This document shows positions 7,964 through 20,616 of a stretch of DNA of 33,281 bases, piece after piece. The DNA lies in the NCBI GenBank assembly GCA_944324135.1, contig CALUVE010000022.1, positions 1 to 33,281 on the forward strand. Direction: 5' to 3'. The stretch comes from Candidatus Gastranaerophilales bacterium (GTDB lineage Bacteria; Cyanobacteriota; Vampirovibrionia; Gastranaerophilales; Gastranaerophilaceae). The position numbers and the translations under genes were made by a program. The notes below the pieces were generated by a model, which had not been told where the DNA came from, ran no database searches, and saw only the letters and a program-made list of their open reading frames with translations. The first letter of the stretch is position 1; every line of letters starts with the position of its first letter.

Positions 7964-9337
7964 ATGTATAATGTAGTAATAATCGGAGCAGGCCCAGCAG
8001 GTATTTTCGCTGCACTGGAAATAACAAAACTCAGACCAGATTGGAAAGTCGCACTTGTAGAAAAGGGGCAGAAAATAGAGAACAGAAAATGTCTCTTAAG
8101 AGAGGGATATGCCAAATGCCCATCCTGTAAAAAATGCGGTTTGCTGTGCGGCTGGGGTGGCGCCGGTGCTTTTTCTGACGGAAAATTAACTCTCACACCG
8201 GATGTTGGCGGTCACCTGGTTGATTATATGTCCAGAGAAAAAGTTGAAGAGCTTATAGATTATTCTGACAAATTATACTTAAAATTCGGAGCAACTGAAG
8301 AAGTTTTCGGAACAGATATGAAAACTTTCAAAGAAATCGAAAGACAGGCAGTACTGGCAGAACTCAAACTTGTACATTCTCCGGTAAGACACCTTGGTAC
8401 AGAAAGAAGTCTTGACGTATTAAAAAACATGCAGGACTATCTTGATGAAAGAATTACAATACTGAACAACGTATCAGCACAATCACTGATAGTAGAATGC
8501 GAACAGGTCAAAGGTATTGTCCTTGATAACGGAGAAACAATATCAGCAGAATACACAATCATTGCTCCGGGCAGAGAGGGTGCAGACTGGCTTACAAAAG
8601 AATTTGCCAAAAATAAAATCGGAATGGTAAACAATGCAGTTGATATCGGGGTCCGTGTAGAACTTCCGGCACCGGTTTTTGAACCGTTAACAGACAAACT
8701 TTATGAATCCAAATTGATATACCACTCTCCAACGTTCGGCGATGAAGTCAGAACTTTCTGTATGAACCCGAACGGAGAAGTTGTTCAGGAAAACTATAAC
8801 GGAATTTCAACAGTAAACGGGCATAGTTATGCTGAAAAAACAACAAATAATACAAACTTTGCACTGTTAGTCAGCAAAAAATTCACAGAACCGTTCAAAG
8901 AACCGATTCAATACGGACAACACATTGCAAGCCTCGCCAATATGCTTGGCGGCGGAATTCTCGTTCAGAGATTTGGCGATTTGCTTGACGGGCGCCGTTC
9001 TACTCCGGAAAGAATTAAATCCAGCATAATCAAACCAACACTTACCTGTGCAACTCCCGGAGACTTAAGCCTTGTTATACCGTACAGACAGATGACAAGT
9101 ATAATCGAAATGCTCTATGCGCTTGACAAACTGGCACCTGGAACAGCCTCCAGATACACACTGCTTTACGGTATAGAAGTTAAATTCTACTCAGCTAGAG
9201 TAAAATTAACAGAAGAACTTGAAACAGAGGGAGTTAAAAATCTCTTTGCAATCGGAGACGGCGCCGGTGTAACCAGAGGGCTTATCCAGGCCTCTGCATC
9301 AGGCGTTCACGTTGCAAGAACTATTTGCTCAAGATAG
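7964..9337 (+). CDS. FAD-dependent dehydrogenase, COG2509 type
   Basis: A 457-residue flavoprotein. The N-terminal Rossmann motif GAGPAG (residues 8-13) binds the FAD ADP moiety. The C-terminus has the second FAD contact AIGDGAGVTRGL. A conserved cysteine-rich stretch CPSCKKCGLLCGWGGAGAF after the first Rossmann segment is characteristic of the COG2509 uncharacterised FAD-dependent dehydrogenases. The substrate is unknown. GGAG ten bases upstream supports this start, and an earlier ATG at 7956 runs into a stop. No neighbour suggests a pathway. Confidence 0.85.
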   Translation: MYNVVIIGAGPAGIFAALEITKLRPDWKVALVEKGQKIENRKCLLREGYAKCPSCKKCGLLCGWGGAGAFSDGKLTLTPDVGGHLVDYMSREKVEELIDYSDKLYLKFGATEEVFGTDMKTFKEIERQAVLAELKLVHSPVRHLGTERSLDVLKNMQDYLDERITILNNVSAQSLIVECEQVKGIVLDNGETISAEYTIIAPGREGADWLTKEFAKNKIGMVNNAVDIGVRVELPAPVFEPLTDKLYESKLIYHSPTFGDEVRTFCMNPNGEVVQENYNGISTVNGHSYAEKTTNNTNFALLVSKKFTEPFKEPIQYGQHIASLANMLGGGILVQRFGDLLDGRRSTPERIKSSIIKPTLTCATPGDLSLVIPYRQMTSIIEMLYALDKLAPGTASRYTLLYGIEVKFYSARVKLTEELETEGVKNLFAIGDGAGVTRGLIQASASGVHVARTICSR

Positions 9338-9353
9338 TATCAGGTGGTATAAT
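9325..9353 (+). promoter_or_regulatory. Extended -10 promoter for a leaderless histidine kinase mRNA
   Basis: A perfect extended -10 TGGTATAAT (9345-9353) lies 17 bp after TTGCTC (9325-9330, 3/6 match). A start about 7 bases past the -10 would fall at 9360-9361, which is the ATG of the histidine kinase. The nearest purine-rich site (AGGTGG, 9342-9347) is 13 bases from the ATG and is inside the promoter itself. Confidence 0.5.
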
Positions 9354-9360
9354 TTATAAT

Positions 9361-11154
9361 ATGAAAAATCAAAAAATCAGTATGACAACTCAAAACCGAT
9401 TAATAATATCAGGACTCGTACTGAGTACAATACTTATTGTAGCAATTGCGATTTTTGCGATATTTAATATCCAGAAAAAACTAAACGAGGGCTATCAAAA
9501 TTTCGGACAGGTAATCTCAAAGACGCTTGCAATTGAGTCTGTTGAAATCACAAGAGGGTTGACTAAACAACAGGTTTATAATACTCTCAAAACTCACACC
9601 GATTCAATTTTAAAAAGCCACGATGACATTGTATTCATAGAATTTAAGGACTCTGACGGCAAAGTCATCTATTCAGGCAAAAATCCTAACTATAACAGCC
9701 AGAAACGCTCAAATATAACGGTAACATCTCCGATGAACGAAGAAAAATCCGGAGTATTTAAATACGCAGGCTCTGTAACAGTCGGACTTTCCGGAAATAT
9801 CATTACCCAGATATCTTCGACAACAAGAAATTCTCTGATGTTTGTATTTACTGTTGCGTGGGTAGTTTTTGCATTTGTAATATTGATAAATACATATTTA
9901 ATTACCCGTGAACTGCGCATTTTGCAGGAGGGCGTTAAAAAGATTTCCACAAAAGAATTCGGATATAAAATTGAAGGAAAAGATGTAAGTAATGAAGTCA
10001 AAGAACTTTTTAACGCATTTAACGATATGTCAGCACGTTTGCACATATATGAAGAACAAAATGTTGAACAGCTGACCCTTGAACGTAACAAACTTGAGGC
10101 AGTACTTTTAAGCATCGCAAACGGTGTTGTTGTATGCGACAACAATGATAATGTAGTACTGGTGAACAACCACGCGCAAAAACTTCTTGAAGTTGAAGAA
10201 CACCAGATGCTTAATACTAAAATTCAACAGTATATAGATACAGCAGGTAATTATTGTTTCAAAGACAAAATTGAAGAATTCAAAGACACTCCTATTGATA
10301 TTATGGAGAAAAAACCTATTGAATTTAATATAGAAGTTGACAACAGGGTTATAAAATCGGTAATATCACCGATGTTTACAAGAAACAAAGATTATGTCGG
10401 GTATATTATAGTACTGATTGACATCACAAAAGAGGCAGAAATGGATGAGATGAGGGCACACTTTATCTCTAATGTTTCTCACGAATTAAGAACTCCGGTG
10501 ACTGTTTTGAGAAGTTATATTGACACCCTTTACAACTACGGCAACGAATTTGATTATGACACCCAGAAAGAGTTTATAGGAACTATAAATCAGGAAATTA
10601 TCAGACTAAATAACATGGTGAATGACATTCTTGATTTTTCTAGACTTGAATCAAATGTAGAGATGCAAAAATCACCGAACGACATTTCAGCAGTTGTCGA
10701 AAATGCGATTAATCAGGTTCAGGTACTTGCAAACGAACATAATTTAACGATAAATGTTTCAAAGGATACAGATATCCCTGTTATTATGTTTAACTATGAC
10801 AGCATAGAGCGTGCTTTTACAAATCTTTTATCAAATGCAATTAAATATTCACCGGATAGCACAAATATTGATGTAAAACTTACGGCTGATAATGAGAATG
10901 TAACAGTAACAGTGACTGATCAGGGCTGCGGAATTGCTCCTGAACATTTGAAAAAAATCTTTGACAGATTTTACAGGGTAGAAAATGCAACGCATACAAT
11001 TAAAGGCACCGGTATCGGTCTGCACCTTGTAAAAACGACTATTGAAAAACATCATAACGGAAAAGTTTTTGTAAAATCCGAAGTTGGTAAAGGTTCAACA
11101 TTCGGTTTTACACTTCCGATAAATGTAATAAGCAAAGATAGCCAGCTAATTTAA
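9361..11154 (+). CDS. Membrane sensor histidine kinase (TM-HAMP-PAS-HisKA-HATPase)
   Basis: A 597-residue two-component sensor resembling the WalK/PhoR group. In order: a membrane helix (about residues 12-35), an extracytoplasmic sensor domain, a second helix near 155-180, HAMP, PAS (about 240-355), HisKA with the phosphoacceptor H374 in SNVSHELRTPVT, and HATPase with the N box NLLSNAIKYSP, the G1/F-box region DQGCGIAPEHLKKIFDRFYR, and the G2 box GTGIGLHLV. The ATG at 9361 is chosen over an upstream TTG at 9325 that would overlap the previous gene. No response regulator lies nearby, so its partner is elsewhere. The signal is unknown. Confidence 0.93.
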   Translation: MKNQKISMTTQNRLIISGLVLSTILIVAIAIFAIFNIQKKLNEGYQNFGQVISKTLAIESVEITRGLTKQQVYNTLKTHTDSILKSHDDIVFIEFKDSDGKVIYSGKNPNYNSQKRSNITVTSPMNEEKSGVFKYAGSVTVGLSGNIITQISSTTRNSLMFVFTVAWVVFAFVILINTYLITRELRILQEGVKKISTKEFGYKIEGKDVSNEVKELFNAFNDMSARLHIYEEQNVEQLTLERNKLEAVLLSIANGVVVCDNNDNVVLVNNHAQKLLEVEEHQMLNTKIQQYIDTAGNYCFKDKIEEFKDTPIDIMEKKPIEFNIEVDNRVIKSVISPMFTRNKDYVGYIIVLIDITKEAEMDEMRAHFISNVSHELRTPVTVLRSYIDTLYNYGNEFDYDTQKEFIGTINQEIIRLNNMVNDILDFSRLESNVEMQKSPNDISAVVENAINQVQVLANEHNLTINVSKDTDIPVIMFNYDSIERAFTNLLSNAIKYSPDSTNIDVKLTADNENVTVTVTDQGCGIAPEHLKKIFDRFYRVENATHTIKGTGIGLHLVKTTIEKHHNGKVFVKSEVGKGSTFGFTLPINVISKDSQLI

Positions 11155-16164: not shown

Positions 16165-16187
16165 TTGTAACGATTTATAACAATTAT

Positions 16188-16215
16188 TAAACTTTTATAG
16201 AGAAAATGTCGATAT
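16188..16215 (+). promoter_or_regulatory. SigD/FliA-like promoter candidate
   Basis: TAAA (16188-16191) is followed after 16 bases by GTCGATAT (16208-16215), one mismatch from the flagellar sigma -10 element GCCGATAT. Spacing is at the long end of the known range. Housekeeping-type alternatives nearby are weak. A 6-7 bp imperfect inverted repeat (TTGTAA...TTATAACAA) lies just upstream at about 16165-16183. Confidence 0.4.
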
Positions 16216-16247
16216 AAGGAGTAAGGGTAAAACTAAAAAGGGCAACT

Positions 16248-18035
16248 ATGGGAATGGCAGCATCGCAAGCCAGATTTCTTGGTCTGACTGCGCGAAAAAC
16301 AAATGTTGAATACGAAGGACAACAGATTAACCAGCAAAGAACAACACTGGCTAATCAATCTGCCAACTATTATAACCAATTGCTGGGGATGAGCGTGCCT
16401 GTGCCGCCATCTGTTGCCGATTATACAAAAACAGTTTACTCTTTTAATGATGGTGCCCTAAATAATACTATTACCTCTTTAATGGCGGAAGGAAACGGTA
16501 GTTATCGTGTAAGCTATTTGTCCAGCTGGACAGATGATTTTGCAATCGCAAGCGGCGGATGCACAAGTATTGTTAATTCAAACCCTGACGGATACTTTGT
16601 CGGTGCAAACAAGATAAAAGAGCTTGGCGAGACATTTAAACTTGCTCAAGTCGCTCACAAAATAGAAGGCGGCGACGGCGCAGGCAATCGTCTTGATGCT
16701 AATATGACATACGTAGATAAGAACGGTAATCAAGTTCAACTGGTAGAAGCAACCTATGACAGAATTGTTTCAATCATAGGCAAAGAACCGCAATTATCAG
16801 ACTACACTACACAGGGACTTGTAATCAACTATAAAAATACACAATGTTACTCTAATGTATCCGGCACAACAAACGTTGGTATCGGACACATGGAGCACAA
16901 TCTTTGCCGTTTAATCTGGGGAGATGGAAGCAGAGCTTCTGTTACATCATCAAGCGGTGTAACAGTAACAAATACAACATTAACTGACGGAAGAACAGAT
17001 GTAATTTCCCTAACGAACTCAGGTTGGGAAACAAATAAAAGTGATTCAACTTCACTTCAGTTGAAAGAAAGATTAGAAACAATTTACCCTGATACATATC
17101 AAAAACTAGTAGATTTATATGTAGACACAATCTTATATCTGAACAAAAACAAATCAAATGTAAGTGGTATGGATATTAAAAAAGACTACTACTCATTGAG
17201 TTCTGAAAATTATGATGCCAACGAAATAACACCGCAGAAATTATTTACAAGATGGGAAAATTTCTGGAATGAAGTAACCAACCTCAGCCCTGAAAAAATT
17301 TATCAAGAAGCCCACGATCAATGGCAGCAAAAATATGACCAATATACAAACTGCTACCTAAATTCAGCAGATTACAGCGACAAATACTATCTGACAACAG
17401 AATTTTTCTATGATGGTGATGACAAATATCTTTCAAGCCTGACAAGCGAACAGCTGGCTCAGCTCTATGACCTTGAAAAACACTACCAAAGATTACTCAA
17501 TGAAACTTACGGCGAACCAGACAACGGCTGGTATGTAAGATACGTTGAAAATACTACATCCGGCGAATTTGAACCGATTTTCTATAACGGAGATGATATG
17601 GTAAACGGTACTGCAGATGAAAACGGTAATATACGTTCTAACGTAAGAACCTACAAAGTCGGCAACCAGAAAAAACAAGAAGAAGTTAAAAACGCAGAAG
17701 CAAAACTGGAACAGGATACAACAGGAAGATACATAAGCCTGACACTGTATGACGAAAACGGCAACCCGAGAACATACGCCCTCACAACCGAAACCGTAAC
17801 TGATCAGGCTAAATACGATGATGCAATGAACCAGTACGAATACGATAAATATCTTTATGAACACGCTATTCAAGAAATTAACGCAAAAATTGAAATCACA
17901 CAGGCAGAAGATAAAAACCTTGAATTACGCCTCAAACAACTTGATACAGAACAAAGCGCAATTTCAACAGAAATGGATGCTGTTGCAAAAGTAATTGAAA
18001 AGAACACAGAATCAACATTCAAAACATTCGGCTAA
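16248..18035 (+). CDS. Lineage-type 595-aa protein with flagellin-like end helices
   Basis: A 595-residue protein of unknown function. The N-terminus MGMAASQARFLGLTARK plus an amphipathic glutamine-rich helix (residues 1-50) and the C-terminal coiled segment (about 540-590, ending NTESTFKTFG) flank a long Asn/Tyr/Thr-rich middle. That helix-middle-helix plan is like axial flagellar proteins such as flagellin or FlgK, but no flagellar domain is clearly present. From memory, MGMAASQAR-type N-termini recur in Melainabacteria and Elusimicrobia. There is no signal peptide. AAAAAGGG five bases before the ATG supports the start. The SigD-like promoter fits a flagellar or surface role, which remains an inference. 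Confidence 0.8.
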   Translation: MGMAASQARFLGLTARKTNVEYEGQQINQQRTTLANQSANYYNQLLGMSVPVPPSVADYTKTVYSFNDGALNNTITSLMAEGNGSYRVSYLSSWTDDFAIASGGCTSIVNSNPDGYFVGANKIKELGETFKLAQVAHKIEGGDGAGNRLDANMTYVDKNGNQVQLVEATYDRIVSIIGKEPQLSDYTTQGLVINYKNTQCYSNVSGTTNVGIGHMEHNLCRLIWGDGSRASVTSSSGVTVTNTTLTDGRTDVISLTNSGWETNKSDSTSLQLKERLETIYPDTYQKLVDLYVDTILYLNKNKSNVSGMDIKKDYYSLSSENYDANEITPQKLFTRWENFWNEVTNLSPEKIYQEAHDQWQQKYDQYTNCYLNSADYSDKYYLTTEFFYDGDDKYLSSLTSEQLAQLYDLEKHYQRLLNETYGEPDNGWYVRYVENTTSGEFEPIFYNGDDMVNGTADENGNIRSNVRTYKVGNQKKQEEVKNAEAKLEQDTTGRYISLTLYDENGNPRTYALTTETVTDQAKYDDAMNQYEYDKYLYEHAIQEINAKIEITQAEDKNLELRLKQLDTEQSAISTEMDAVAKVIEKNTESTFKTFG

Positions 18036-19427: not shown

Positions 19428-20027
19428 ATGGCAAGCAGCAAATTACACTACAAAAAAATGGCACAAGAAGAACTGATTGTGCTTTCTCAAAAAAATGATT
19501 TGAAAGCTCTTGAAGAGCTGCTTCGCCGTGAGCAAAAAAATATTTTTACAACATTCAGCTATCTGAGTAAGAAACGGGAAAATGTCTCTGACTTAACGCA
19601 GGAGGCGCTTCTCAGGATAGCAAAAAACATACATTCTCTCAAGAACCCCAAAACATTCAAAAGCTGGCTGAATCAAATTGTAACAAATCTTTTTTATGAT
19701 GAACTACGAAAAGCATCCAAGCGTCCTGAAATAATCTCCATTGATGAGACAGAACACGACGGCATGACAAACCCGATAAAAAATCAAATACCGGATAAAA
19801 AATGCAAGCCGCCAGAAAAATGTATGTCCACAGAACTTGAAAACATTATTAAAACGGAAATACAGAATCTGCCGGAAGCATTCCGCGTGGCAATAATGCT
19901 CAGAGAATTTCAAGGACTCAGCTATGAAGAAATAGCCGTTGCGACTAATACAAGCATTGGAACTGTAAAATCAAGAATTGCACGTGCACGCGGAAAACTA
20001 CAAGAAGAACTTAAATCATATATATAA
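19428..20027 (+). CDS. ECF-type RNA polymerase sigma factor
   Basis: A 199-residue extracytoplasmic-function sigma factor that redirects RNA polymerase to its own promoters. Region 2 is visible at about residues 30-98 (DLTQEALLRIAKNI, then FKSWLNQIVTNLFYDELRK). A charged linker with two cysteines follows. Region 4 (about 145-198) has LPEAFRVAIMLREFQGLSYE and the helix-turn-helix NTSIGTVKSRIARARGKL. There are no regions 1.1 or 3, which fits ECF. AGGAGAT just upstream supports the start. The following gene, 10 bases away, is its probable anti-sigma factor. Confidence 0.93.
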   Translation: MASSKLHYKKMAQEELIVLSQKNDLKALEELLRREQKNIFTTFSYLSKKRENVSDLTQEALLRIAKNIHSLKNPKTFKSWLNQIVTNLFYDELRKASKRPEIISIDETEHDGMTNPIKNQIPDKKCKPPEKCMSTELENIIKTEIQNLPEAFRVAIMLREFQGLSYEEIAVATNTSIGTVKSRIARARGKLQEELKSYI

Positions 20028-20037
20028 GGAGCAAAAT

Positions 20038-20616
20038 ATGCATCAGGAACTAACTTGCAATCAGGTAAACGCACTAATGAGCTTTTATCTTGAGGACAGA
20101 TTGAACGAAACACTCAAAGAATATGTAGAAAACCACCTTAAAAGCTGCCCGAAATGTCAAAAACGCTATCGGGAACTATATGAACTTTTAAACAAAAAAA
20201 TAAAAAAAATACCTGTAGAAGAAGATAACAGCGAGCAATTCAAAACACAGCAATACATAGAATTTAAAAAGAATCTATCCGCATACGTTGATAATGAGTT
20301 GAACGATGATGAAAATATAAAGATAAAAAAAATAACAATATCAAATCCGCTGGCAAGACAGGATTTGGAAAAAATATATACATACAAAAAACTTATCCAC
20401 ACAGCCTTTGAAAAGACAAAAAATGACATAAAAGAGGACTACACAAAATCCGTAATAGATAATCTTGCAAAACAAGAAATTCTCAGCGAAAAAAAATCAA
20501 AAGATCCATTTGTAAGATTAATAAGTGCATTTGCAGCGACAATACTATTTTTAATACTTACACTATTCTGGTTCACTATGGAAAGCGGACTGCTTAAATT
20601 TTCATATCACTTCTAG
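20038..20616 (+). CDS. Zinc-finger anti-sigma factor, single-pass membrane
   Basis: A 192-residue protein with the zf-HC2/ZAS anti-sigma signature: C7 and H33-x3-C37-x2-C40 (NHLKSCPKC). A charged cytoplasmic linker follows, then one membrane helix near residues 161-180 (LISAFAATILFLILTLFWF) close to the C-terminus. Only a dozen residues lie outside, so it lacks a sizeable sensor domain. The chosen ATG at 20038 has a perfect AAGGAG (20026-20031) overlapping the sigma gene stop. The stop overlaps the opposite-strand gene by 23 bases. It is expected to hold the sigma factor inactive at the membrane until a signal arrives. Confidence 0.88.
   Translation: MHQELTCNQVNALMSFYLEDRLNETLKEYVENHLKSCPKCQKRYRELYELLNKKIKKIPVEEDNSEQFKTQQYIEFKKNLSAYVDNELNDDENIKIKKITISNPLARQDLEKIYTYKKLIHTAFEKTKNDIKEDYTKSVIDNLAKQEILSEKKSKDPFVRLISAFAATILFLILTLFWFTMESGLLKFSYHF

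Follow-up and report, generated by a model that had tools for sequence, protein, structure and literature searches.

The question raised by this locus is what a gene for a long protein with helical ends, preceded by a candidate promoter of the FliA/SigD type, is doing in a 33-kb window across which, as a sequence-only reading had noted, no flagellar neighbor is seen. The window, i.e., the whole stretch of DNA analyzed here (33,281 nucleotides of Candidatus Gastranaerophilales), is the entire contig C22 of a 1.82-Mb draft genome that is 99.9% complete (the source genome, G000, whose contigs bear C numbers). Gastranaerophilales are non-photosynthetic gut relatives of the cyanobacteria. The sequence-only reading had placed the gene at 16165 to 18035 and seen in it a new surface or filament protein or a relic of a flagellar regulon. 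The end of that span is right, but 16165 is only the base that follows the preceding stop codon; the open reading frame (ORF) starts with an ATG at 16248 on the + strand, ends at 18035, and encodes 595 amino acids (aa). We found that this gene is most likely one of many variants of a Gastranaerophilales axial-type family with conserved ends and a variable center, and it is plausible that its product is a surface or filament protein. On balance we lean, modestly, toward the view that this hairpin-ended, variable family is controlled by FliA, exported by a second, non-flagellar type III apparatus, and stacked as rod, needle, or filament subunits.

The family became apparent within the source genome. 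At least 11 paralogous loci have in common only the first ~45 to 50 and the last ~55 to 60 residues, while their middles differ. The total is probably higher, because contig ends cut some loci and two more ends stop right after an identical FliA-type site. Many of the loci are single genes scattered among housekeeping genes; the closest paralog of the window gene lies on contig C5, 12 kb from an FlhA gene. The pattern also holds at the DNA level, as the paralogs C7 and C8a are 97% identical over their first 353 bases and 90% identical over their last 590, with no alignment in between. When the two conserved ends were joined and used as a single profile, it matched in 241/241 genomes of the order Gastranaerophilales, as a rule many times per genome and in open frames. 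Among 103 non-redundant members in the loci that we collected, the insert between the ends spanned 11 to 754 aa (median, 274), with the C-terminal motif abutting the stop codon. A Pfam scan of 59 members found no common inserted domain; one member had GLUG repeats. In sister families, complete proteins of 109 to 138 aa match the joined-ends profile over its full span, i.e., they consist of the ends only. Relatives elsewhere mostly bear the annotation Candidatus Gastranaerophilales or Melainabacteria, which puts the window in this order. Outside the order, a sample of the phylum had clear members only in one genome of the class (G429, 109-aa forms), with three marginal matches elsewhere, and a Vampirovibrionales contig from another collection carries two 109-aa copies in tandem.

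The window protein is itself nested. Its residues 1 to 130 and 390 to 595 are ~55 to 80% identical to those of many relatives, and residues 131 to 390 are common to few. Its parts are as follows.

16188..16215, + strand: FliA/sigma-28-type promoter-like site, TAAA-N16-GTCGATAT; the motif also lies upstream of most family members
16248..18035, + strand: 595-aa protein with conserved helical ends and a variable center (ORF, relatives, and AlphaFold2 model)
16251..16388, + strand: N-terminal conserved helix, residues 2 to 47, with the MGMAASQAR motif (paralogs, ends-only proteins, and AlphaFold2 model)
16425..16637, + strand: first half of a predicted beta-rich shell, residues 60 to 130, kept in close relatives (relatives and AlphaFold2 model)
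16638..17420, + strand: variable center, residues 131 to 391, absent from most relatives (relatives)
17421..17801, + strand: second half of the conserved shell, residues 392 to 518 (relatives and AlphaFold2 model)
17805..18029, + strand: C-terminal conserved 75-residue helix, residues 520 to 594, DTEQ...KNTESTFKTF (paralogs and AlphaFold2 model)

Helical ends around an Asn/Tyr-rich middle had been proposed from the sequence, and both features were recovered. Asparagine and tyrosine make up 16.5% of residues 53 to 519, compared to 10.0% of the remaining window proteins, and AlphaFold2 predicted terminal helices (residues 2 to 47 and 520 to 594) flanking a beta-rich shell and a helical center (mean pLDDT, 85.5; pTM, 0.55). 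An ends-only protein was modeled as a confident helical hairpin (helices 3 to 48 and 60 to 116; pLDDT, 89.9). The window protein is thus predicted to be this hairpin with a beta/variable domain inserted. When solved structures were realigned to the window model, the top 15 rows were all flagellar filament proteins (Z, 8.3 to 9.0 over 107 to 131 residues), and proteins of the hook, cap, and rod ranked lower. We read this match as one of similar architecture, because scores of this kind are inflated by long helices and the hairpin by itself matches generic coiled coils. As most of the alignments start at flagellin residue ~48 to 50, they correspond to D1 rather than to D0. With respect to the suggested D0-like bundle, the ends look like helices of the D1 type, and no D0 equivalent was seen, although a monomer model is not decisive on this point.

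Likeness of layout did not extend to sequence. Neither Flagellin_N nor Flagellin_C matched the window protein at an E value of ≤10, nor did Flagellin_N match anywhere in the source genome at that threshold. Four family alignments compared by hhalign with 17 flagellins of the order gave probabilities of 0.2 to 0.6%, and comparison with FliE, FlgB, FlgC, and FlgG-type rod proteins gave no homology. Pfam and NCBIfam profiles gave no meaningful match to the window protein, and a sequence search of solved structures gave none. The window protein is flagellin-like in layout and is no member of the flagellin family. Like flagellin (FliC; PF00669/PF00700), the family has conserved terminal helices, a variable center, a FliA-type promoter, several paralogs, and a predicted fold nearest to flagellin D1. 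Unlike flagellin, it has its own end motifs (MGMAASQAR... and ...KNIESTFKTF), ends-only forms, and members in genomes that lack both flagellin and canonical FlhA. It exemplifies a flagellin-like architecture without detectable flagellin ancestry.

A coiled-coil hairpin also invites another explanation, namely, that these are unexported cytoplasmic or membrane-associated proteins, e.g., PspA/Vipp1-like, that fell into the FliA regulon by chance. A PspA profile does match the window protein weakly (E value, 0.0015), and PspA/Vipp1 is among the many coiled coils that the hairpin matches structurally. However, the PspA score was 18 bits against a cutoff of 243, coiled-coil hairpins match many folds, the complete model matches flagellins first, and Asn/Tyr-rich beta centers would be atypical of a PspA-like protein. 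We consider this explanation improbable.

The promoter was the second part of the question. The proposed upstream TAAA-N16-GTCGATAT is present 32 bases ahead of the ATG of the window gene. While the exact string has 0.01 expected occurrences in the window, sites with ≤2 mismatches are as frequent as chance (8 found versus 8.0 expected), so a lone site proves nothing and we rejected it as promoter evidence. The case instead rests on recurrence across the family. Taking the best site ≤150 bases upstream, a score of ≥11/12 was reached by 43/100 family genes but by only 16/874 control ORFs from the same loci (Fisher P = 7e-34, a guide only because related genes are not independent). The spacer was 16 bases in most family promoters and 15 in the rest, and 11/13 ends-only genes had a FliA-type site. 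The genome-wide motif count showed a mild excess only (19 versus 9 in a reversed control). A search for fliA/sigD in the source genome found a FliA-type sigma factor at G000:C3:84761-85423, which scored 239.5 bits with TIGR02479 against a curated FliA/WhiG cutoff of 189.6, so the lack of a flagellar sigma factor, which the sequence-only reading had named as part of a refutation, does not apply to this genome. Its gene lies ~2 kb upstream of a cluster of rod genes encoding two FlgF/G-type proteins, FlgB, and FlgC. From these promoter statistics, the FliA-type factor would be what switches on the family genes. In many family promoters, a TGTWAACA-like or TTATAACAATT-like element also recurs directly upstream of the TAAA box (~16168 to 16187 in the window) and may be an activator site.

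A FliA regulon raises the question of which machine it serves. The type III export set of the source genome (FlhA, FlhB, FliP, FliQ, FliR, FliI, and FliH) is complete, although spread over contigs: C5 carries FlhA, FliH, a FliG-like protein, FliF, and FliE; C11 carries a FliM/N-type protein, FliO, FliP, FliQ, and FliR; FlhB is on C27, FliI on C19, and the rod proteins on C3. Both the FlhB cleavage motif (NPTH) and the P-loop of FliI are intact; in a genome from one other family (G015), the FlhB motif reads NPIH. FlhA passes neither the flagellar nor the injectisome cutoff, as it scored 704.3 with TIGR01398 (cutoff, 772.1; the canonical FlhA of G216 scored 851.9) and 596.1 with the SctV model TIGR01399 (cutoff, 692.25).

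This divergence proved to be a property of a separate gene lineage. FHIPEP was found in 241/241 genomes of the order, while Flagellin_N exceeded its cutoff in 97. Canonical FlhA (~820 to 890 bits) occurred in 91 genomes, every one of them with flagellin; six others have flagellin without it, and the remaining 144/241 have neither. The flagellin-bearing genomes that were checked have the divergent FlhA besides the canonical one, and a few flagellin-negative drafts gave only partial FlhA matches. Canonical and divergent FlhA form separate clades with 100/100 support. One divergent copy of FliI was present in 20/20 genomes tested, with a canonical copy only in flagellin-bearing ones. FlhB followed the same two-copy versus one-copy pattern with one exception (G009), and from reading of the loci, FliP, FliQ, FliR, and FliF likewise fall into two classes. 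In two other families (L203 and L204), the second set stands as one operon, flgB-flgC-transglycosylase-fliE-fliF-fliG-fliH-flhA-fliI, in which the transglycosylase was identified by Pfam. It matches the single-contig run reported by Di Rienzi et al. (flgG, flgG, flgC, fliF, fliH, flhA, fliI, flgE), whose list of shared flagellar genes also has two flhA in ACD20. The source-genome components match the families of the flagellar export apparatus and rod (FlhA/FlhB/FliPQR/FliHI, FliE, and FlgB/C/F/G), but this FlhA branches separately from the canonical FlhA that occurs in the same genomes, and most genomes of the order lack flagellin.

Earlier papers took the flagellar gene subset of the order as remnants of a degrading flagellum (PMC3787301, PMC4040986), and the sequence-only reading had allowed for a relic. 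In line with this, that literature describes such a genome as lacking flagellin, cap, and outer rings. However, the apparatus and the family are both universal in the 241 genomes, the family is multicopy with open frames, and within the order the second FlhA is no more divergent than the canonical one, bar one long row. A decaying regulon is thus disfavored and very improbable. We also considered whether the family proteins were substrates of an ordinary flagellum in flagellated ancestors and were retained for another reason. The FliA promoter would fit, as would the canonical-looking flagellar genes ~3 kb from one family gene in G429, outside the order, but 144/241 genomes keep the family without flagellin or canonical FlhA, and we give this account little chance. 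The second set looks like an ancient non-flagellar export system and not a flagellar remnant, and the retained genes are probably a working secretion or surface-filament system.

Several further genes touch on this apparatus. A stand-alone FlhA C-terminal domain lies on C7 at 9084 to 10094 (L025:9051-10553), in a 500-aa protein whose last 350 residues form the domain and which has no transmembrane segment. It may be near universal in the order, because most flagellin-negative genomes show two FlhA matches, and it could serve as an additional protein for docking substrates. Immediately following the second FlhB, a sigma region 4 protein of 211 to 227 aa is encoded in four genomes from at least two families (C27, L212:10328-10990; L213, L216, and L194). 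Between fliQ and fliR lies a gene for a secreted-looking 125-aa protein (C11, L044:10391-10768) with a weak match to a secretin-type N domain (PF13629; E value, 0.0019); the published ACD20 gene numbering likewise leaves one gene between fliQ and fliR.

What connects the family to the apparatus is partly gene order. In sister families, the first gene of a conserved cassette, A-B-C-D-E, is an ends-only gene (A). In the source genome, the C5 paralog takes the place of A and is followed by B, D, and E. The E protein (108 to 115 aa) is homologous to A (hhalign probability, 97.7%), and the cassette thus has two small proteins that are related to each other. Paired small axial proteins occur in type III systems, and the A/E pair recalls them. 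The link suggested by this cassette, the proximity of the C5 paralog, the FliA promoter, the flagellin-like build, and the universality of both partners in the order would give the following mechanism. Family proteins, switched on by FliA, may pass the second export gate, the window protein having no signal peptide-like or transmembrane stretch. Their helical hairpins may then stack as rod, needle, or filament subunits, with the variable centers facing outward and probably surface exposed. The proposed apparatus would comprise FliF, a FliG-like protein, FliH, FlhA, FliI, FlhB, FliOPQR, FliE, and the rod proteins FlgB/C/F-G, with a lytic transglycosylase in some families. What the data show is the family, its promoter, the second apparatus as a distinct gene lineage, and the presence of both throughout the order; export of the family by this apparatus, polymerization of the hairpins, and surface exposure of the centers are inferred.

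The main rival to this mechanism is that the family comprises secreted effectors or adhesins, in which the ends are an export signal and a chaperone-docking handle and the center is cargo. The diversity of the centers, one with a known repeat, agrees with this, as do the many single-gene loci dispersed among housekeeping genes, and the stand-alone FlhA C-domain protein could serve as an extra docking platform. However, conservation of a whole helix at both termini is more in keeping with a structural subunit than with just an N-terminal export signal, and so is the homology to a small hairpin that stands alone as a whole protein. We regard effectors as unlikely, if still to be taken seriously.

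Other points weigh against export and stacking of the family by the second apparatus. Joint universality is a weak argument, because neither the family nor FlhA varies within the order; the survey of the second FlhA was confined to the order, and G429 and L162 have the family beyond it. Of the family genes, 38/100 scored <10/12 for a FliA-type site, and the C5 paralog in the cassette has no evident one. The best Foldseek match of the window model was a flagellar filament, at a non-significant E value of 0.04; a Z score near 9 with long helices can be mere arrangement, and in structural searches the hairpin alone matched only generic coiled-coil hairpins. Finally, MEL.A1 is reported to have no L and P rings (PMC3787301), which makes it hard to see how anything would get through the outer membrane.

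Our preferred reading, a family exported and stacked by the second apparatus, can be set against known systems. Abby and Rocha (2012; PMC3459982) described the injectisome as a single exaptation, with other flagellar systems retained for secretion. The second apparatus resembles injectisomes, including the secretin-less Myxococcales type in that study, as a flagellum-derived export machine freed from motility, but it keeps flagellar-type rod proteins, FliE, FliO, and the FliF C-domain and scores nearer to flagellar than to Sct models. Buchnera is reported to retain flagellar basal bodies (PMC8109811), and non-flagellated Lysobacter to retain flagellar genes (PMC7277350, PMC9927559). Gastranaerophilales are alike in keeping flagellar export genes without a flagellum, but their machine is a separate second copy, found alongside a true flagellum in flagellated relatives and accompanied by a large lineage-specific family of candidate substrates. 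We found no paper on a second export system in Melainabacteria or Gastranaerophilales in the open-license literature, which is not proof of absence.

More broadly, we suggest tentatively that the whole order carries a third kind of type III machine, descended from an ancient duplication of the flagellum and separate from the motility flagellum as well as from the injectisome, which builds FliA-controlled, non-motile surface needles or filaments from hairpin-ended subunits whose repertoire is large, variable, and specific to the lineage. If so, the so-called incomplete flagellum of these gut bacteria would in fact be an organelle of another kind, and a complete one. The order is described as often having lost flagella, and a dedicated export organelle made from the retained genes would add a second flagellar exaptation to that of the injectisome. 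The order-wide variable proteins would also be prime candidates for interaction with the host or other microbes. The hairpin-only forms of the sister families are small enough for purification, which makes polymerization testable.

Some observations lie apart from these subjects. The family member on C19 has phage-like genes directly upstream, one of which reads as a large terminase (G000:C19, L033:2281-7379). On C11, a stand-alone 108-aa protein (L045:8969-9295) with a hairpin-like pattern resembles A and E and is distant from the cassette. Three adjacent genes on C5 (L024:3623-15910) encode very large, secreted-looking, repetitive proteins of 1306, 858, and at least 1784 aa. The neighbors of the window gene, judged from their translations without searches, are leucine-type biosynthesis and housekeeping genes, and by the same kind of reading, positions 19428 to 20616 hold an ECF-type sigma factor gene followed by an anti-sigma-factor-like gene.
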